From Asparagopsis taxiformis (Eukaryota; Rhodophyta; Florideophyceae; Bonnemaisoniales; Bonnemaisoniaceae): a stretch of 64,000 nt of DNA. Below the pieces are notes generated by a model. That model did not search any database and was not told the origin of the DNA. It saw only the letters and a list, made by a program, of their open reading frames with translations. A program made the translations under genes and the position numbers. This document shows positions 11,418 through 40,869 of the stretch, in pieces. Each line of letters starts with the position of its first letter. The first letter of the stretch is position 1. The stretch is from NCBI GenBank assembly GCA_030407315.1, contig JALQPE010002468.1, positions 93,622 to 157,621 on the forward strand, in the 5' to 3' direction.

Positions 11418-12313
11418 GGTGCGGGTGCGATGGTTGGTGATGCTGCGTTTTGGTGTGGGCTGTGGCGGATGGATGGAAGATTGTGGCGATTTGACATGTT
11501 GTGGGCTGGTGAGGATGGAGATTTGGTGTAGGTTGAGCTTGCAGATATGGTACGGTTGGATGCGTTCATAGGTGTTATTGTCGCTGCTGTATGACTGGAT
11601 TTGTGTTGGATTTCATTTATGGTGTTGTTTGTGGGCCCGAAATTGTATGCTTGGGGCATTTCTGGCCCCTGAAATAATTTGTTATCTCGGTTTGGGATGA
11701 ATGGGAAACGTGTCCGGAATTGGTACTGCGGTCTACAGCTTGGAAACGGAGGCAAGGTCTTGCTTACTGTCTATCTCTCGCCATTTTCGACTCTGCGTAG
11801 ATACAAGTAAATTAATTTTAGCAAGGAGAGCGTTCTTTCTTCAGGATGTATCGCAAACATTTTGCATCGGTTTCGTTGCATATTGTGACAAAACATACTC
11901 GCTGTTGATCCCTTACCATAGTACACTGTACGGTCGTTGTCGTCATCAACACAATACGTTTGGTCTCCCCTGTTTGCATTACATATCTGACGTAGTCATG
12001 TGCGTTATGGGTTATCTACGTATTTTAGTCCCAACACATGTAATACATCCATTGGCTTATTACTATCATCTTACTGTACAGTAAATACACTTTCGTACTA
12101 CTACACTCTTAAATTGCATTGTCATTCGCCGCAGACCAACTCTCAATACACTCTCAACATGCCATGCGCACGACCACGTCCAACTCGGATCAAACACCAT
12201 TGCCGAAAGCTACATCTCAGCATCATCCCACCAACTGAAACCAGCTTCAATCATCCCCCCATCCAATTAGCCCCCAGCCCTTCCATCTGCATTAACAGAA
12301 AGCGCACATCTCC
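11418..12313. other. divergent intergenic region
   Basis: It separates the leftward membrane-protein gene from rightward RPC2 and should hold both promoters. The right half is AT-rich. A minus-strand frame at 11342-11755 overlaps the membrane gene and looks spurious. Confidence 0.4.
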
Positions 12314-15300
12314 ATGGATGCCAAGAAGGAGCCATTGCCAACGCAAATTCCCGTTGAAGTGAAGCCCAAAATCGAACAAACGCCTCTGTCCTTTGACAAT
12401 TCACAAAAGCATCATGAAAAACCTGCACAGAAACCAACTGACACCAAGACTGACCCATCCTTCGTCAAACGACCGCCCTTCACTCACGAGCAATTACTGC
12501 AGCCGATAAAGGCCGTGCAGGACAAGTGGAAGCTTCTACCAGCATTTCTCGCCCTGCGCGGAGTAGCCAGACATCATGTCGAGTCCTTCAATTACCTCAT
12601 CAACACAGAGATCAGGAACATTGTCCGCGCCAACGAGAAAATCATTTCCGACATAGACCCGCGTTGGTATCTGAAATACGACGACGTACGCGTAGGAAAA
12701 CCGTGCCAGACAGACGACATGATCCGCAACGATATCACCCCCCACGAATGCCGTCTACGCGACATCACCTATTCTGCCCCGATAACCGTGGACATCAAGT
12801 ACACCCGCGGCGAGGAGATCGTGCTCACCAGAAACATGCTCATCGGCAAAATTCCCATCATGCTCCGCTCCGCCAATTGCGTCCTCTCCCGCAAATCAGA
12901 CGCCGAACTCGCCGAGCTGGGCGAGTGTCCACTCGATCCGGGCGGCTATTTCGTCGTCAAGGGCGCCGAGAAAGTCATCCTCATTCAGGAGCAGCTTTCG
13001 AAGAACCGAATCATCATCGAAAAGGACCCCAAAGGCATCATTGCCAATGTCCAATCTTCCACTGCGGAGCGCAAGTCTCGCACGACACTCGTCGTGAAAA
13101 ATGGAAAGATCTATCTCCACCACAATACCCTCGAGGCAGATGTGAACATTGCGATCGTGCTGCGCGCAATGGGCATCGAAACAGATCAGGAGATCATCCA
13201 GCTCATCGGTACCGAGCCCCGTTTCGTGGACGGAATGGCCCAGACTTTGCATGAATGCGCCCATGAGGGTATCCATACAGAGACACAGGCACTCGTGTTC
13301 ATCGGTAACAAGGCAAAGACATTTCGCGGTCCCGCTTTTGGATCATCGCGTCCCGGCTCGATGCGTTCCGGTCCCGCCCCGAAACCAGCTCCAGATATGA
13401 AAGCCGGCGCTAAAATGGCTGGCAATTTGTATCATCCCAAACAGAAGAGCATTGATCATGCGCGTGATCTGTTGTCGGGCGTCATTTTGGCGCACGTTCC
13501 TGTAAAGCATTTCAACTTTTGGGACAAATGTGTCTTTGTAGCGCAGATGTTGCGAAGAATGTTGATTGCGATGGAGGATGAATCTACCATTGATGATAAG
13601 GATTACTATGGAAATAAGCGTCTCGAATTGTCCGGTCAGCTCTTGTCGTTGTTGTTTGAGGATTTGTTTAAAAAGTTCAATACAGATCTTAAGCGCATTA
13701 TTGATGCACAGATTACGCGGTTCACGAATAAGGTCGCAAAGGAGAAGACGCGGAAAAGGATGAGCGATGGGTTTGATGGCGGCCGCTCTACCCCACGTCC
13801 AAATATTGATGTTTCCAAGTATTTCAGAACGGACACCATCACGCAGGGGTTAGAGTTTGCTATTTCGACAGGGAACTGGCATGTGAAGAGATTTAAAATG
13901 GAGCGTTCTGGCGTCACAGAAGTGCTGTCGCGCCTGAGTTTCATCTCGGCGTTGGGAATGATGACAAGAATCACGTCACAATTTGAGAAAACCAGAAAGG
14001 TTTCAGGACCTCGTGCACTGCAACCGTCGCAATGGGGTATGCTGTGCCCCGCTGATACTCCAGAAGGTGAGGCTTGTGGTCTGGTGAAAAATCTGGCATT
14101 GATGAGTCATGTTACGACGGATGATGACCCTGCGCCATTGGAGAGACTATTGTACGATCTTGGCGTGCAACCAACAGCAATTCTAACAGGGGAGGAGATT
14201 AACCAAAATGACATTGTATTTCTGAACGGATTGATCATCGGAGTTCATTGCCAACCAAGAAAGCTGACGTACCGTTTACGAGAGCTGCGGCGAAGCGGAT
14301 TTATAGGAGAATTTGTAAGTGTATTCGAGCAGCCAGACCATGGATATGTACATATTGCATGCGATGGTGGTCGTGTCACGCGGCCTTTGATCATTGTGGA
14401 TCTGTCTACTGGACAGCCGCGAATCCGAGATGAACATGTACAAAAAGTGACGAAAGGGCTGATGGTGTGGCGTGACCTGCTGGAAGATGGATTGATAGAA
14501 TACCTAGACGTGAACGAGGAGAACAATACGCTAATCGCTACGTATGAAACAGACATTGTCGTCGGGAAAACTACACATATTGAAATTGCACCATGGACGA
14601 TTCTCGGCGTATGCGCCGGACTAATTCCGTACCCGCATCACAATCAATCACCGCGTAATACCTACCAATGTGCTATGGGCAAGCAAGCAATTGGAGCGAT
14701 TGCCTACAACCAACACATGCGTGCTGACACGCTGCTGTACCTTTTGAGCTATCCGCAACGGCCGTTGGTGCAGACGAAAACGCTAACACTTGTGGGATTC
14801 GAACGACTTCCCGGAGGGCAAAACGCATCGCTAATGGTAATGTCGTATAGTGGATACGATATTGAAGATGCGGTCGTGCTAAACAAAGCGTCATTGGACC
14901 GTGGCTTTGGACGTTGCATCGTAATCCGTAAGCACTCTGCAGGCTGTAGACGATATCCCAATGGAGCATCTGACCGAGTGATGCCGTCACCTGCGACAGC
15001 ATCGGAGGCTGAAGGAGATCGGTTTGCGGCGCGACAGTTTGCGCGTTTCTCAGCTCTTGACAGTGATGGAATCATTGCGCCGAGCGAGCAGCTATCAGCG
15101 GGAATGGTGTTTGTGAACAAAGAAGTACCCGAGGTGCAGTCGATTGGGGCCAATTTACCAGGCATGATGGGCGGCATGAGGTATCGTAGCCAGCCCATGA
15201 CGTTTAAAGGCAGCTCGCGCGTTGTGGCTGACAAAGTGCTGTTGACGAGCAATGAAGTGGACCACGTGCTGATCAAAGTGATGTTGCGTGAGACGAGACG

Positions 15301-16027
15301 GCCGGAACTCGGGGACAAGTTTTCATCGCGGCACGGGCAGAAGGGTGTTTGTGGACTGATTGTGTCGCAGGAGAACATGCCGTTTTCTGATAAGGGAATC
15401 GTGCCGGATTTGATCATGAATCCTCACGGATTTCCGAGTCGAATGACGGTGGGGAAGATGATTGAATTTGTGGCGGGCAAGGCGGGCGTGTTTGAAGGAC
15501 AGTTCCGATACGGCACGGCTTTTGACGGGGACAAATTGTCGGTGTGCGCGGAGAGCCTTGTGCGAGCGGGGTACAATTACAACGGCAAGGATTTTGTGTA
15601 CTCGGGGATTAGCGGGGAAGCGTTGCGCGCGTACGTGTTTTCCGGACCAATCTTCTACCAGAAGCTCAAGCATATGGTCAAGGACAAGATGCATGCGCGA
15701 GCGCGGGGTCCGCGAGCGCTACTGACACGACAGCCGACGGAGGGACGGAGCAGGGACGGCGGGCTGAGATTGGGCGAAATGGAGAGGGATTGTCTGATTG
15801 GGTATGGAGCATCCATGTTGTTGATGGAGAGATTGATGGTTTCATCGGATGAATTCACCGTGCATGCGTGCCAAGTATGCGGGTTGATCGGATACAAGGA
15901 TTGGTGCCAGTTTTGTCAAAGCGGGCGTGAGGTGGCGATGCTCAAGATTCCATATGCGTGCAAGCTGCTGTTTCAGGAGCTGCAAGCAATGAACGTCGTG
16001 CCAAAGCTCAAGATGGAGATTGTATGA
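12314..16027 (+). CDS. RPC2: RNA polymerase III second-largest subunit RPC2
   Basis: The 1237-residue protein is the beta-like catalytic subunit of nuclear RNA polymerase III, which makes tRNAs and 5S rRNA. Pol III rather than Pol II identity comes from segments such as [50 protein letters not shown] and [11 protein letters not shown]. The conserved core is intact: [50 protein letters not shown], and the clamp segment [15 protein letters not shown]-terminal zinc ribbon is visible (HACQVCG then WCQFC). About residues 340-380 form a Gly/Pro/Ser/Lys insert ([12 protein letters not shown] and on) not typical of the family. RPC3 of the same enzyme lies at the right end of the window. Confidence 0.96.
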
Positions 16028-21473: not shown

Positions 21474-21479
21474 GTCAAG

Positions 21480-21553
21480 CGACCCTGGCAGGACTTGAAC
21501 CTGCAATCTCCGGATCCGTAGACCGATGCCTTATCCAATTTGGCCACAGGGCC
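21480..21553 (-). tRNA. tRNA-Arg(ACG)
   Basis: The minus strand folds into a complete cloverleaf: acceptor GGCCCTG/CAGGGTC (one G-U), D-arm GCC/GGC, anticodon loop CTACGGA, T-arm GCAGG-TTCAAGT-CCTGC, and discriminator G. The anticodon ACG (inosine-modified to ICG) reads CGU, CGC and CGA. A T-T mismatch closes the anticodon loop (31/39). No intron and no encoded CCA. Internal A and B boxes are in normal order. Confidence 0.95.
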
Positions 21554-31428: not shown

Positions 31429-31438
31429 AAAACAAAAA
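31429..31438 (-). terminator. Pol III terminator of the permuted tRNA-Gly
   Basis: On the minus strand five Ts, a G and four Ts follow the 5'-half of the tRNA after a short trailer. A T-run after the 5'-half, not after the 3'-half, is what a permuted gene requires. Confidence 0.75.
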
Positions 31439-31454
31439 GAACGGAGAGCCTTCA

Positions 31455-31531
31455 TGGAAGGCTGATATCATACCATTTGACTACAGGCGCGCTCATTACG
31501 CCCGCCGGGAATCGAACCCGGAACCTCAGCT
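31455..31531 (-). tRNA. circularly permuted tRNA-Gly(UCC)
   Basis: On the minus strand the 3'-half of a tRNA (positions 38-73; 31531 down to 31497) is transcribed first, then a 6-base spacer (31496-31491), then the 5'-half (positions 1-37; 31490 down to 31455). Joined at 37/38, they form a complete cloverleaf: acceptor GCGCCTG/CGGGCGT (one terminal G-U, one internal U-G), D-stem GTCA/TGAT, anticodon stem TCAGC/GCTGA, anticodon TCC after T33, T-arm CCGGG-TTCGATT-CCCGG, and discriminator A. In direct order no cloverleaf forms. Flanks of the cut sites fold as a bulge-helix-bulge. An upstream TATA and a downstream T-run delimit the transcript. Confidence 0.9.
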
Positions 31532-31554
31532 CACTCCTCGGCTGATTGCCCCGC
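31532..31554 (-). other. leader of permuted pre-tRNA-Gly (splice helix strand)
   Basis: This leader ends ...AGCCGAGGAGTG just before tRNA position 38. GGAG can pair with CTTC of the anticodon loop (32-35), leaving the bulge TG-A at one cut. AGCC can pair with GGCT of the trailer (31446-31449). The exact 5' end is inferred from the TATA position. Confidence 0.6.
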
Positions 31555-31580
31555 TCGATCTGCAGTGCGATTTTTATGAA

Positions 31581-31586
31581 TTTATA
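31581..31586 (-). promoter_or_regulatory. TATA element upstream of permuted tRNA-Gly
   Basis: The minus strand reads TATAAA about 50 bases before the 3'-half. This leaves room for a leader of roughly 25 bases, enough to make the splice helix. Confidence 0.55.
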
Positions 31587-31857: not shown

Positions 31858-34800
31858 ATGGCAGAGCAACGCTACGGAGACCAAGTTTCCGTCCAAGAAT
31901 CAAATGGTGCCCTAATTGTAACAGGCCCAGACGTCACCTCACTAACTACCCGTCCCCACTTGTTCACAAAGACCTCTTTCAGGTCTGAAACCAATGCAAG
32001 CCATCACATAACTGTAATCCCTGCCCATGAATACAAGAACCTCTCAACAAACTGCAGGACAAGCGCAAAAATCACTCTAACAGCTGCGAACCCACCGCAA
32101 CCACTTTCAATTCGCTCTATTCAAACACATAACCCCGACATAACTATAACTTTTGTTACTATCTTTTGGCCAGATGCAGCGCGTCTCCGTGCAAGACTTG
32201 CGCTTCCTGTCCATCATTTCCACATAACGCTTCAAGCAACGCCGCGGAATCTACATCAGGTTTCCAAACACATAACATATATCTCGCCCAGTGCACCACT
32301 CGATGATTTTTTGGAGTCTATAAGGGGCCATTTGCGATCACTGGCGGCCGAAAAAGAGCAGAGTACACAACTATGGGCCGGGTGGCGTTTGTACCGTCGC
32401 CACTTTGCTGAGAGATGCCTGGGACTTACAGAGCTTGTCATGGGTGACGTACAGCGTGATGATGATGGAAATGAAGAGCAGACCACCGAATTGAGAAGAA
32501 AGTTCCATGAGACTCGCGTGGCATGTTTCAGGCTGATTCCTGGGAGGGGTGATGAAGAAATGTCAGCGTCTTATGCGTTAGTTTCTGTGGCACCAGATGT
32601 TCCGTCTTCGTATTTGCACCATGCTATTTCTCTTTTCAACTCTGGAAGTGTTCTGAAAGCATCTCGTTGCGCATGGAAGGCCTTGTTAATATCAAACGAT
32701 ATTGAAGGTTCAGTCGTGGAATCTTCTTTGCTCTTGTTGGCCAAGTGTCAAAAGTTCATGAATATGGTTCGGCTTGATGTGTTTTTGATTGGTCAGCACC
32801 CTTTTGTTCATGAGGAAGAAGGGTATTTCAAACTCTGCTGGTCCGCACTAGCTCCAGAACAGAAAGAATGGCATCATATGTTTCTTGCGAGGGTAATGGA
32901 GGTATTCTTTGAAAATAATTTCACCATGTCTAAACCACTGACAGACCAGCGAACAAGATATATGATGGCGAGGACGAAAGGTGGGAAAAATAAGCTGGAC
33001 AAGCTTCCCAAGTACTTTTCATGGTTTATCCCTTTCAGGATTGCAGCTTCGGCAATTCCACGCGAAGAAAAAGACATTTCCAATTTATGCGCTCTTGGCA
33101 TAAATAAGGTGTTCACCCTATCCATGGAATGCCCACTCAGATCGGAATGGTTCAATGATGGAATTCAAAACGTGTTTCTTCCAGTCCGTGATAATTTTCC
33201 ACCATCGTTTTCGCAACTCGATGCTTTCTTTGCGGAGGCGACCGCAGAGAACTCTCAAAGTCTCGTCCACTGCATTGCGGGGATTGGAAGAACAGGGACT
33301 CTTCTGGTAGCATGGTGCATGCTTTATGGCTCGCAAAATGTGCCCAGGTTGTGCATGATTTGCAATGAGAAACTGAAGGGTGGACTTCGCAGCGAATTGA
33401 AAGTAGGTACATGCGAAAATGAACTGTGCTCTATGGGGTGTAGAGAACCGGCAATGTCAGCAGAGAAAGCCATTGCATTCGTTCGTTCTCTAAGAAGCAG
33501 ATCAGTGGCTTCATGGCGTCAGGAAAGCTTCCTTAAGGAATATAATTCAGAGCTATGGCGAAGATCAAGTGGTTGTATTCTGGGTAATGCGGGCACGGAT
33601 CAAGTTGAAAATGAATTTGATGACTCTCCTTTGGAAATCATTGGAAACCGGCCTAACCACATTCCCTCCTTGATTGTGATGTGCGGCGTTCCTGGCTCAG
33701 GCAAGTCGTACATCGCTCAGACATTCCTCAACTCACTCGGTGATAAATGCACAATAGCTTGTCAAGATGAAATGGGGTCAAAGGCTGCATGTGAATTTGC
33801 AGTTTCCAATTCAATGCAGAGTAGGAAAACAGCATGTTCCATCGTTGACAGATGTAATCTACTGGAGCGTGACCGAGGGGAGTGGTTGGGAGTTGGATTC
33901 GAACCTAAAGATGCAATGGTTATCTTCATGGATACGTCAATACCAACATGCATTAACCGTGCGGAGACACGGGTTGATCACAAGACTCTAGTTCCTCAAA
34001 AATCGCAGAGGCTGATTAAGTCGCTCAGTCGCTCCATCCAACCACCAGGACAGGGGGACATAAAGAACGGGTTTAGTACAGTGCTTGTCGCGAAGGGGCG
34101 GCGTGCTGTTTCGGAAATGTTCGCTCTATTCGGTATTTCCGATACAAGTCGCTGCGTGGCATATCAGGGTAATGCCGAATCTGCAGACACGGGGGATACG
34201 AATCGTTTGCAGAATTTTGTCAAGTTTCCTCGCACAAGGCATCTGCTTGACCTTGGGTCGGTAACTAGAAGTGATTTGTGTAAGTCCAGGGCTGATGCAC
34301 AACAGATGATAGAGCTTCATGGAAAGAATGGAATTGAATTACACCTGGAGGAGAAAGTTGATGGTGCAAATATTGGATTTAGCATTGACAACGATACAAA
34401 TGCGATCCGGGTTCAAAACCGATCCCATTTTATCGATAATACGTCACATGCTCAGTTCAAGCTTGTTTCGCAGTTTGCTGAGAAGCATGAAAATGATATA
34501 AGGCATGTGTTGGACGGCGACTCGAGCAATATCTTATTCGGAGAATGGATGTTTGCTCGACATAGCGTTCGGTACGAGCGATTGCCGGCTTATTTCTTGG
34601 TGTTCGATTTGTACATGGGTAAGAAGAAGAAGTTTGTTAGCAGAAGTCGACTGAAACGAATTTTGACTGAAACTGGGTTGATTTCTGTAGGAGAGATCAC
34701 TGTACCAAGTGGGGCGAAACTAACATTGGAAAGTATTGTGGACATAGTGCAGCAAGGAAGGAGTGACTATGGAGATACATCCATCGAAGGAGTATATTTG

Positions 34801-34947
34801 CGGTTGGACCAGGGCGAATGGTTGATTGATCGGGCGAAGGTTGTCCGACCAGGATTCATATGCGGTAATCAGCATTGGAGTCATCGCGGTGTAGAACAAA
34901 ACGGGGTTTTGGAAAGTGCTTACTTGTACAGCTACAGAACAACATGA
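31858..34947 (+). CDS. multidomain RNA-repair enzyme: DSP phosphatase, polynucleotide kinase, RNA ligase
   Basis: The 1029-residue protein joins three end-processing activities. A dual-specificity-phosphatase domain (about 385-565) has the loop HCIAGIGRTG with C472 and R478 and a possible acid D445. A P-loop kinase (about 603-760) has GVPGSGKS (610-617) and DRCNLLERDR (664-673), the polynucleotide-kinase type motif. A C-terminal nucleotidyltransferase (about 785-1029) has ligase motif I EKVDGAN with K833 as AMP acceptor, E896 in GEWMFA, the AYFLVFDLY strand, EGVYLRL and motif V AKVVRP. This matches proteins called Swiss-army-knife RNA-repair enzymes. The N-terminal third is divergent; one HxT (H122-T124) could be a remnant of a 2H phosphoesterase. 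It would heal and seal RNA breaks. It starts 327 bases from the permuted tRNA gene, divergently. Confidence 0.85.
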   Translation: MAEQRYGDQVSVQESNGALIVTGPDVTSLTTRPHLFTKTSFRSETNASHHITVIPAHEYKNLSTNCRTSAKITLTAANPPQPLSIRSIQTHNPDITITFVTIFWPDAARLRARLALPVHHFHITLQATPRNLHQVSKHITYISPSAPLDDFLESIRGHLRSLAAEKEQSTQLWAGWRLYRRHFAERCLGLTELVMGDVQRDDDGNEEQTTELRRKFHETRVACFRLIPGRGDEEMSASYALVSVAPDVPSSYLHHAISLFNSGSVLKASRCAWKALLISNDIEGSVVESSLLLLAKCQKFMNMVRLDVFLIGQHPFVHEEEGYFKLCWSALAPEQKEWHHMFLARVMEVFFENNFTMSKPLTDQRTRYMMARTKGGKNKLDKLPKYFSWFIPFRIAASAIPREEKDISNLCALGINKVFTLSMECPLRSEWFNDGIQNVFLPVRDNFPPSFSQLDAFFAEATAENSQSLVHCIAGIGRTGTLLVAWCMLYGSQNVPRLCMICNEKLKGGLRSELKVGTCENELCSMGCREPAMSAEKAIAFVRSLRSRSVASWRQESFLKEYNSELWRRSSGCILGNAGTDQVENEFDDSPLEIIGNRPNHIPSLIVMCGVPGSGKSYIAQTFLNSLGDKCTIACQDEMGSKAACEFAVSNSMQSRKTACSIVDRCNLLERDRGEWLGVGFEPKDAMVIFMDTSIPTCINRAETRVDHKTLVPQKSQRLIKSLSRSIQPPGQGDIKNGFSTVLVAKGRRAVSEMFALFGISDTSRCVAYQGNAESADTGDTNRLQNFVKFPRTRHLLDLGSVTRSDLCKSRADAQQMIELHGKNGIELHLEEKVDGANIGFSIDNDTNAIRVQNRSHFIDNTSHAQFKLVSQFAEKHENDIRHVLDGDSSNILFGEWMFARHSVRYERLPAYFLVFDLYMGKKKKFVSRSRLKRILTETGLISVGEITVPSGAKLTLESIVDIVQQGRSDYGDTSIEGVYLRLDQGEWLIDRAKVVRPGFICGNQHWSHRGVEQNGVLESAYLYSYRTT

Positions 34948-38699: not shown

Positions 38700-39072
38700 G
38701 ATTCAGATGATGGAATATCAACAGCGATCGACCTGTTCTTCGAGGGTTTCAATGATGTACTCGAAGATTTCACATGCGTGTTGCGGAGATGGAGATAACG
38801 ATGCGGTTCGATGTGTCAATTGATGACTGCCGACGACATTCGATGGCGTGTGTAGAAGTTGACACTTGGTTTTTGCAATCTTAATTTGGCGTGGAGCAGG
38901 GCGATGACTAGCCGGGGGAAGTCGCGATATCAACTTGAAGCTGGCGTTCGGTCGATGATGCGTTGTGACTTGAGAGAAGATGTTGTTCAGTTGCTGATTC
39001 GTTATTGTTTATTCTAAATTTCAACATGATCTCAGCCAGCTCTTCAGATTGTTGAGCAGAGCGTTTGCAGAA
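38700..39072. other. divergent promoter region, CNX3 / SufE-MnmA
   Basis: The two genes start back to back here, so both promoters lie in these 373 bases. No sharp TATA element is seen. Confidence 0.45.
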
Positions 39073-40869
39073 ATGTGCAATTCTGCTACCTGCGATTCGC
39101 CTCCCGCGTTTGTATCACACTTTGTGCAAAAGTTCCCGTGTGAGCGGGCGACAGGAAGACGTTCACGCTTTGCTCAGTGTCATTCATCATGCAGGCAGAC
39201 CAACAAACGTTCCAAGTGGTCATGTGCACTTCCCGCAAATTTGAAGTCCTTAGCAGCGCAAATTCAAATGGGTAACAGTGTGACTGAGAGATATCTACAA
39301 TTAGTGAAAGTTGGACATCAGATGACGCTGCTCGCTGAAGAATCTCTTGAAGCTTCTTCTAGAATATCTGGATGTACCTCAATATCGCATGTGACAGTGC
39401 AGATGAGACCTGACAATTCAGTTGTGTTAGCAGGTTATTCTGATGCGCAAATCTCCCGCGGAATCGTTGCACTACTCGTTCTAGGTCTCAACGGATGTTC
39501 GGCATCTCAAGTTTTGAGTATACAAGCTGCTGATGTAATTTCTGCGACAGGCCTAAATGAAGCGGTTGGGCCATCTCGAATAAACGGTCTGGTCAGCGTC
39601 CTTGCTGGGATAAAGAAGCAAATATCACAAATTCAAAGCCGGAACACATCATTGCAAAATGATGAACAGAGCCATCCGATGGACGGACGATGGAGTGGTA
39701 GACAAGGGGAAGATGTCGCAGTACTATTATCAGGAGGTGTCGATTCCTCGGTTGCAATGCGACTCGCAATGGAGGGAGGTGCAAGGGTGCATCCATTCTA
39801 TCTGAAGATTTGGCTTGATGACGAACTGGCACATTTGGGCCAGTGTCCATGGGAAGAAGATATCGAATATGCCAGCGCGGTATGCAAGCAGGCGGGTGTG
39901 AAATTGCAAGAGGTTCCATTTCAAAATGCGTATTGGGATGAAGTGGTCTCATATACAATTGACCAAACGCGACTAGGACGTACGCCAAACCCGGACGTGA
40001 TGTGCAATTCCAGAATTAAGTTTGGGGCGTTTCACGAGCGCATCGGGAAGCACTATGACAAAGTCGTGACGGGGCATTATGCTGAGACGAGAATAAATAC
40101 GGACACTGGTCTGGCGGAGTTGTATGTTTCGAAAGATCCATGGAAAGATCAGACGTACTTTTTGGCGCATCTTCGTCAGAATCAACTGGCCAATGTATCA
40201 TTTCCTGTCGGGCGGTTTTCGAAACAAGATGTGCGACATCTGGCGCAGCGATATAATCTGCCGAACAAAGAGAGGAGGGATTCGCAGGGGATCTGCTTTC
40301 TGGGCAAGCTGAAATTTGATGATTTTCTCGCTCACCACCTGGGATATCGACGCGGGTCACTGGTGGAGTTCGAGACGGGACTTGAACTGGGACATCACAG
40401 AGGGTTTTGGTTTTTTACACTCGGTCAGAGAAGAGGTGTGGGGCTTTCCGGCGGCCCGTGGTATGTAGTATCAAAGGACCCGGTGCGAAACGTTGTGTTT
40501 GTGAGCAAGGATTATAACCATGTCGATAAGGAAAGGAATTGTTTCGAGTTTGAAACGCCGCTGTGGATTTCGGGAAATTGGCCGGAGGAACTGAGCGAGA
40601 TTGGTGATGTCATGGAGTTGAAAGTGAAGACGCGACACGGTCCGCACTTTCATTCGGCGACGGTTTGTCGTTTGCCACAGGGGCGTGGTAGGGTGGATTT
40701 GGTGCAACGAGACAAGGGCTTGGCGCCTGGTCAGTTTGCTGCGTTTTACAAGGATGATATGTGTCTAGGATCGGGTATTATCTCAAATGACTTGTCGCTG
40801 TCGGAGGCACCGAAGGTTATTCGGAAAATGTCATCCAAGTCGAAACGATTGCAAGCGCTCAATCCGTAG
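39073..40869 (+). CDS. mnmA: SufE-MnmA fusion: sulfur acceptor joined to tRNA 2-thiouridylase, probably plastid
   Basis: The 598-residue protein combines two enzymes. Residues about 55-190 form a SufE domain: SRISGCTS with the persulfide-accepting C101, then YSDAQISRGIVALLVLGLNG and VGPSRINGL. Residues about 213-598 form MnmA/TrmU: PP-loop SGGVDSS (220-226), NPDVMCNSRIKF with catalytic C311, DQTYFLAHL, DSQGICFLG with C408, and the C-terminal GQFAAFYKDD barrel. MnmA thiolates U34 of tRNA-Gln, -Lys and -Glu; SufE carries sulfur from the desulfurase SufS. The N-terminal 55 residues look like a transit peptide. The frame opens earlier only with TTG. In bacteria the sulfur relay to MnmA uses separate Tus proteins. 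Confidence 0.92.
   Translation: MCNSATCDSPPAFVSHFVQKFPCERATGRRSRFAQCHSSCRQTNKRSKWSCALPANLKSLAAQIQMGNSVTERYLQLVKVGHQMTLLAEESLEASSRISGCTSISHVTVQMRPDNSVVLAGYSDAQISRGIVALLVLGLNGCSASQVLSIQAADVISATGLNEAVGPSRINGLVSVLAGIKKQISQIQSRNTSLQNDEQSHPMDGRWSGRQGEDVAVLLSGGVDSSVAMRLAMEGGARVHPFYLKIWLDDELAHLGQCPWEEDIEYASAVCKQAGVKLQEVPFQNAYWDEVVSYTIDQTRLGRTPNPDVMCNSRIKFGAFHERIGKHYDKVVTGHYAETRINTDTGLAELYVSKDPWKDQTYFLAHLRQNQLANVSFPVGRFSKQDVRHLAQRYNLPNKERRDSQGICFLGKLKFDDFLAHHLGYRRGSLVEFETGLELGHHRGFWFFTLGQRRGVGLSGGPWYVVSKDPVRNVVFVSKDYNHVDKERNCFEFETPLWISGNWPEELSEIGDVMELKVKTRHGPHFHSATVCRLPQGRGRVDLVQRDKGLAPGQFAAFYKDDMCLGSGIISNDLSLSEAPKVIRKMSSKSKRLQALNP

Follow-up and report, generated by a model that had tools for sequence, protein, structure and literature searches.

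The stretch of DNA analysed here (64,000 nt in full; hereafter the window) carries a type II circularly permuted tRNA-Gly(UCC) gene, with its junction between tRNA positions 37 and 38, on the minus strand of positions 31429-31586. A preliminary description had placed the 3'-half ahead of the 5'-half with a 6-nt gap between them; direct reading bears this out, and assigns the gene to the minus strand, which had gone unstated. The features of the locus are given below in order of transcription, followed by the neighbouring protein-coding gene:

31586-31580, minus strand: TATA-like box TATAAAT, lying 55 nt ahead of the 3'-half
31540..31543, minus strand: leader AGCC, pairable as the outer helix with trailer GGCT
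31532..31537, minus strand: leader end GGAGTG; GGAG is pairable with C32-U33-U34-C35, and TG together with A38 makes a 3-nt bulge
between 31532 and 31531, minus strand: expected cut on the leader side, from the splice-motif register
31531..31497, minus strand: 3'-half, tRNA positions 38-73 (A38 at 31531, A73 at 31497), first in the transcript
31496..31491, minus strand: 6-nt spacer ATGAGC between positions 73 and 1, a loop that would cap the acceptor stem
31490..31455, minus strand: 5'-half, tRNA positions 1-37 (G1 at 31490, A37 at 31455), second in the transcript
between A37 (31455) and T (31454), minus strand: expected cut on the trailer side, from the splice-motif register
31447..31454, minus strand: trailer TGAAGGCT, whose GGCT pairs with leader AGCC
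31438-31434, minus strand: T5 run TTTTT, putative Pol III terminator, recognised by motif
31858..34947, plus strand: divergent, head-to-head neighbour, a predicted 1029-aa RNA-repair protein recognised by domain search and motifs

Joined at 37/38, the two halves form a canonical tRNA. The acceptor stem has 7 bp, including two wobbles (G1-U72 and U6-G67), and the D stem 4 bp, including one G-U; the anticodon and T stems are each Watson-Crick at all five pairs, confirming for the joined molecule the earlier claim that the 5-bp arms are perfect and that U33, UCC and TTCGA are in place. U8, A14, G18G19, a 4-nt variable loop, TTCGATT and A73 are likewise present, and CCA is not encoded. ARAGORN and Rfam missed the permuted gene in the window, as expected, and reported solely a tRNA-Arg(ACG) near 21479-21553. 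We considered an ordinary intron-containing tRNA for this locus and rejected it, since the 5'-half does not lie ahead of the 3'-half.

The joined 71-nt tRNA served as query against the whole draft assembly (141,494,207 bases in 3156 contigs). The 12 half-matches that were returned make up six permuted genes and no contiguous one, adding five copies to the one described previously. At each of the six, both halves lie on one strand, the 3'-half first and a spacer between them. The copies (the window copy, on C2342, and those named C212, C67, C83a, C83b and C83c after their contigs) lie in four neighbourhoods, with the three C83 copies inside 1.6 kb and in both orientations; the spacer is 6 nt long in the window copy and 5, 5, 14, 14 and 18 nt in the others. 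Since the arrangement recurs at five further places with different spacers, its occurrence in the window is not due to chance. A covariance model of permuted tRNAs, trained on 28 rows that include the window, C83a and C83b copies, scored the six copies at 61-66 bits and the adjoining ordinary tRNA stretches at 38 bits or less. Reading frames by the C83 copies, named by eye, resemble E1-type and peptidyl-prolyl-isomerase-type genes.

The 71 mature nucleotides are identical in the six copies except for one C-to-T change in C83b, which converts an acceptor-stem G-C pair to G-U and keeps the pairing. C212 and C67, 96.9% alike across 4.3 kb, represent either a duplication or two alleles; in the flanks of the other copies, detectable similarity is gone within ~20 nt of the tRNA, and the start of the trailer is common to the window, C83a and C83c copies. 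These comparisons bear on another possibility, namely that the six loci are pseudogenes or remnants of tandem tRNA duplications, with an undetected ordinary nuclear tRNA-Gly(UCC) gene, for example one containing an intron, working in their place. Near-identity over 71 nt in six copies with diverged flanks, and a single change that keeps its base pair, argue against this. So does the composition of the 12 half-matches, among which a similar gene in normal order, with or without an intron, would be expected and none was found. As a separate observation, the leaders and trailers of C212 and C67 are by eye visibly more divergent than their ~97% surroundings, and the changes keep the outer helix.

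The preliminary description had credited the window gene with a complete splice structure. In eukaryotic anticodon-intron pairing, the register has a three-base bulge that is cut after its second base. A bulge-helix-bulge (BHB) motif, strict or relaxed, can be formed at the junction, and in the window it can be drawn as described: GCTGA/TCAGC, the bulge TG-A, the central helix GGAG/CTTC with one G-U, the bulge CA-T, and AGCC/GGCT, where the hyphens mark the expected cuts. Two of the copies, those of the window and C83b, have a fully paired 4-bp central helix; a single mismatch interrupts it in each of the remaining four, and its end pairs are present in all six. By folding energy, C83a alone has its minimum at the canonical register. 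In the window copy the minimum slides GGAG one base onto U33-C36, and the drawn register is 3.2 kcal/mol costlier; the corresponding penalties are 0.2 kcal/mol for C83c, 2.7 for C67, 4.7 for C83b and 5.0 for C212. The earlier claim stands as to what can be drawn and, for two copies, as to the full helix, but a mismatch in four copies and a register that is the minimum in just one take away from its completeness. The latter count is a point for the pseudogene explanation. Against that explanation, the leader ends in G-N-N-G-N-N before A38 in every copy, with -3 facing C32 and -6 facing C35 as in the anticodon-intron register, a count of six of six that comes from copies not all independent of one another. 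We give the conserved G at -3 and -6, together with the known mechanism, more weight than the folding energies.

Beyond the second bulge, outer helices can be formed in all copies (assigned partly by eye): AGCC/GGCT in the window, TGCC/GGCA in C83b, GAGCGG/CCGCTC in C83a, GGAAGTGG/CCACTTCC in C83c, CCCAGGG/CTCTGGG in C212 and CCGGGGA/TCCCTGG in C67. We compared the summed energy of each leader paired with its own trailer with that of swapped pairs. At the initial setting, own pairing ranked 2 of 720; over 25 length settings with six copies, it ranked 1-32 of 720 for trailers of at least 16 nt and 11-111 for 12-nt trailers. When one of C212 and C67 was dropped, 120 arrangements remained: with trailers of at least 16 nt, own pairing came first in 32 of 40 settings and at 4-10 in the remaining 8, and with 12-nt trailers it ranked 1-19 in 10 settings. 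Taken one copy at a time, leader-trailer pairing is weak relative to shuffled sequences (11-109 of 1000 equally good); with 45-nt flanks, only two of the six copies stand out from shuffles, and once the tRNA constraint is lifted, four of the six fold more favourably into other structures, by 2.2-7.9 kcal/mol. The complementarity of leaders and trailers is a further point against pseudogenes.

The signals expected around a Pol III gene, which had been proposed from the window alone, are there: the TATA-like box at 31586-31580 and the T-run at 31438-31434 together support the reading of the locus as a circularly permuted tRNA-Gly(UCC) gene with its junction at 37/38. Five of the six copies have an AT-rich, TATA-like box 54-83 nt ahead of the 3'-half; C83b has no clear box and only TTGAATACATT. 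The first TTTT after the 5'-half comes at 15-23 nt in four copies, at 32 in C212 and at 56 in C67. By eye, a similar box and T-run accompany most of the listed ordinary nuclear tRNA genes. By motif, the loci read as single transcription units with a box before the 3'-half and a T-run after the 5'-half, clearly so in the window copy and less so in C83b, C212 and C67.

The position of these signals also bears on whether the two halves are instead transcribed separately and joined in trans, as in a split tRNA. The halves are indeed separate, and 37/38 is a usual junction of archaeal split tRNAs. However, in all six copies 5-18 nt separate the halves, which share a strand and follow the order 3'-5', an arrangement outside the split-tRNA class, and an interval of that length leaves no room for a promoter and a terminator. 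The upstream boxes and T-runs lie outside the halves, and, summed over copies, leaders pair best with their own trailers. We regard joining in trans as the least probable of the explanations considered here, with hardly any claim to belief, and continue with the reading of a single permuted transcription unit.

An intact ordinary gene for the same tRNA had been named beforehand as something to be sought across the genome and as grounds for rejecting the permuted reading; as far as the search reaches, its outcome favours that reading. Under ordinary rules, GGA decoding requires U34, and six reading frames of the window use GGA more than any other glycine codon (111 of 359). Patterns combining a UCC loop (C32 or U32) with a B box at normal spacing recognised no contiguous nuclear tRNA-Gly(UCC) gene; the contiguous genes that were recognised are on the plastid contig C469 and the bacterial contaminant contig C1424. 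The CTTCCR pattern gave five matches: the plastid gene on C469, the bacterial gene on C1424, and sites on C152, C436 and C1385, at which ARAGORN found no tRNA. The TTTCCR pattern gave six, two on C469 that represent one place at a 177.17-kb offset and one each on C1866, C2491, C2664 and C2732; of these, the tRNA check with ARAGORN covered the C1866 match alone, where it found none. A broad pattern, TTCCR..GGTTCRANYC, had 139 matches (79 forward, 60 reverse), and among the matches listed most are a few repeated sequences. ARAGORN found no gene at the 10 examined of 30 broad-pattern loci (L025-L054), and the permuted model, applied to all 30 and to six further stretches, gave one weak match (E 0.26). 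These patterns presuppose an intron-free gene with YTTCCR and GGTTCRANYC, and would pass over one that is interrupted by an intron, has an atypical B box or falls in an assembly gap. Blindness to introns, a draft assembly in 3156 contigs, and an intron-like tRNA-Ser missed by ARAGORN (L028, below), which illustrates that genes can be overlooked here, all speak for a hidden ordinary gene. Weighed against the sequence conservation, the guanines at -3 and -6 and the half-match search, we nevertheless consider it improbable that the permuted copies are pseudogenes. On the reading that they are working genes, they are apparently the only nuclear-encoded source of a tRNA with the UCC anticodon, reading GGA.

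A scan for other permuted genes had also been suggested. As a control, we used two concatenations of plant-type tRNAs, comprising 22 query types. All 40 matches to the first cross 37/38 in ordinary order (segment borders compared by hand), as do 30 of the 31 matches to the second, some of which are plastid or bacterial; the exception, 26 nt long, is on C1161, which bears a CCA-ending tRNA. Since they cross 37/38, these matches identify Ala, Pro, Glu, iMet, Cys, Ile, Phe, Leu(CAG) and Thr-like genes as ordinary, and ARAGORN places Arg, Asn, Gln, Trp and Val genes in ordinary order. The contigs with the four Tyr-like matches are plastid or bacterial, and one Ser-like match, on C1157, was left unplaced. 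At least nine of the 22 types (Lys, Asp, His, Gly(GCC/CCC), eMet, Gln(CTG), Val(AAC), Leu(UAA) and Ser(GCU)) had no match to their queries. The outcome of the scan is ordinary order for the nuclear tRNA types that could be tested, with at least nine query types matchless; the tRNA inventory is partial, RF00005 scoring having covered 63 of 5383 candidates. Exact-pattern scans of viral and GTDB contigs gave no match, and neither did blastn of the region against phage records.

Some ordinary tRNA loci have features of their own. L028 (G000:C86 near 139380, minus strand), missed by ARAGORN, is a tRNA-Ser(UGA)-like sequence with, by eye, an apparent intron after the anticodon and ~14 extra D-loop bases; by analogy with Cyanidioschyzon, this intron is possibly an ectopic one. 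tRNA-Arg(CCU) genes (L075, L076 and L093, on C614, C1742 and C2133) and tRNA-Asn(GUU) genes (L077 and L078, on C182 and C2336) occur as inverted pairs ~0.5-0.7 kb apart, and similar pairs at a shorter distance are formed by Ile-like sequences on C2652 and C1608 and Phe-like sequences on C2462.

The assembly is of mixed origin. Contig C469 carries a red-type rbcL that, among the 120 matches listed, is 96% identical to a Gracilariaceae entry, ~91-95% to other florideophytes and ~89-90% to Bangiaceae; several tRNA matches on it repeat at an offset of ~177.17 kb, as expected if the plastid circle has been read past its start. In the window, RPC2, a subunit of RNA polymerase III, is encoded at 12296-16027 on the plus strand in one open frame of 1243 aa. 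Its product shares 75-76% identity with the Gracilariopsis chorda and Gracilaria domingensis proteins, 59% with that of Porphyridium and 56% with that of Galdieria. From its sequence, we take the window to be nuclear DNA of a florideophyte red alga. An assembly artefact, or contaminant DNA from, for example, an epiphytic microalga, would be a different source for the permuted genes, and bacterial contigs such as C1424, which has CCA-ending tRNAs, do occur in the assembly. That there are six copies, in four neighbourhoods and with spacers that differ, counts against both artefact and contaminant, and the RPC2 similarities, which place the window contig only, against a contaminant; we judge this explanation very unlikely, and retain the reading of florideophyte nuclear genes.

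Enzymes for splicing a permuted precursor are encoded in the assembly. Four matches to PF01974 (splicing endonuclease) are of two kinds, those on C5, C1662 and C1663 having equal scores and that on C1878 being of the other kind. RtcB is found on C1747, a contig of unchecked origin, and two RtcB fragments on C1390, and the only match in the assembly to the RNA ligase family PF09414 is the neighbour of the window gene. Thus, a splicing endonuclease and an RNA ligase (PF01974; RtcB and PF09414) are both represented. The neighbour combines 2H phosphoesterase, DSP-type phosphatase (DSP-PTPase) and Rnl2-type RNA ligase domains with a P-loop kinase match below the Pfam cut-off, and contains HxT twice at the expected places, CX5R, a P-loop and KxDG. 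Judged from these domains, it could possibly heal and seal the ends for circularisation. Its adjacency is probably a coincidence, since relatives are widespread (Gracilaria domingensis and many fungi are among those named), RtcB is present, and five of the six permuted copies lie elsewhere. We set aside the idea of a dedicated partner of the permuted tRNA, and mention it as a side point. Further along the plus strand, a single reading frame at 38998-40869 encodes SufE sulfur-acceptor and MnmA-type tRNA 2-thiouridylase domains.

We conclude that the window gene is very probably one of six functional type II (37/38) permuted nuclear tRNA-Gly(UCC) genes of a florideophyte, matured by the following proposed pathway. 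The upstream box, internal boxes and T-run suggest that Pol III would make a single RNA consisting of leader, 3'-half, spacer, 5'-half and trailer. The body of this RNA would fold as a tRNA, with the spacer closing the acceptor stem and a computed pairing of leader and trailer extending the anticodon stem; the exact BHB register is taken from the sequence and does not coincide with the energy minimum in every copy. By analogy with Cyanidioschyzon, tRNA-splicing endonuclease would cut after A37 and before A38, and a ligase would join 37 to 38 to give a circular RNA. RNase P and tRNase Z would presumably take out the spacer, as in the same alga, with CCA then being added, and the mature tRNA-Gly(UCC) would read GGA codons.

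Permuted tRNA genes were reviewed by Soma 2014 (PMC3978253), with 34 examples from six unicellular algae and one archaeon. In Cyanidioschyzon, according to that review, the permuted pre-tRNA is cut and circularised, the spacer is removed by RNase P and tRNase Z, and CCA is added; anticodon-intron pairs are mentioned there as well. Since the host is a florideophyte, the precedent of Cyanidioschyzon lies within the same phylum. The table of PMC3978253 has two C. merolae Gly(CCC) genes, with junction 37/38 and 7-nt spacers, and no Gly(UCC). Like the genes described here, they are glycine genes of a red alga with a 37/38 junction, a short spacer, a BHB and more than one gene per mature tRNA. They differ in the anticodon, CCC, and in an additional intron at 55/56; moreover, C. 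merolae is a unicellular cyanidiophyte with a 16.5-Mb genome, and the processing of its permuted pre-tRNAs has been shown with RNA (PMC3978253), whereas the seaweed genes are known from sequence. In Ostreococcus, Micromonas and the Bigelowiella nucleomorph, nearly all permuted genes are likewise type II (37/38), with spacers of 5-64 nt, but these are unicellular and of the green lineage, and no glycine tRNA is in their part of the table (PMC3978253). The archaeon Thermofilum pendens also has the 3'-half before the 5'-half and very short spacers (7 and 1), with its junction at 59/60 (PMC3978253). In Auxenochlorella, according to PMC12636532, permuted tRNAs were likewise found after an ordinary scan had left the set incomplete, in this case in a green alga. 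PMC13353863 refers to permuted tRNAs by a citation.

We found no report of a permuted tRNA in red algae outside Cyanidiophyceae in the open-access literature searched, mostly at the level of titles and the openings of abstracts. Within that literature, the statement in the preliminary description that no such gene had been described in this kind of alga is borne out, with the Cyanidioschyzon and green-algal cases known. The kind of gene is therefore not new, but it is apparently unreported from florideophytes or from multicellular organisms in the open-access literature; what appears to be new here is its phylogenetic reach and its multi-copy, apparently exclusive state.

If permuted genes are both multi-copy and exclusive in a macroscopic red alga, the arrangement is not limited to small single-celled genomes. 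The absence of Gly(UCC) from standard annotation of such genomes would be explained, since ARAGORN and Rfam overlook the gene, and the six natural variants of leader, trailer and spacer offer material for studying what the splicing endonuclease recognises. We suggest, tentatively and at somewhat less than even confidence, that the whole cytosolic supply of an essential tRNA comes from a dispersed, duplicated family that has been kept permuted, its leaders and trailers diverging under selection for pairing. Taken together with the Cyanidioschyzon Gly(CCC) genes, the seaweed family raises the prospect, on the same tentative footing, that permuted glycine genes are old in red algae, and that maturation through a circular RNA may have stayed obligatory through the rise of multicellularity.
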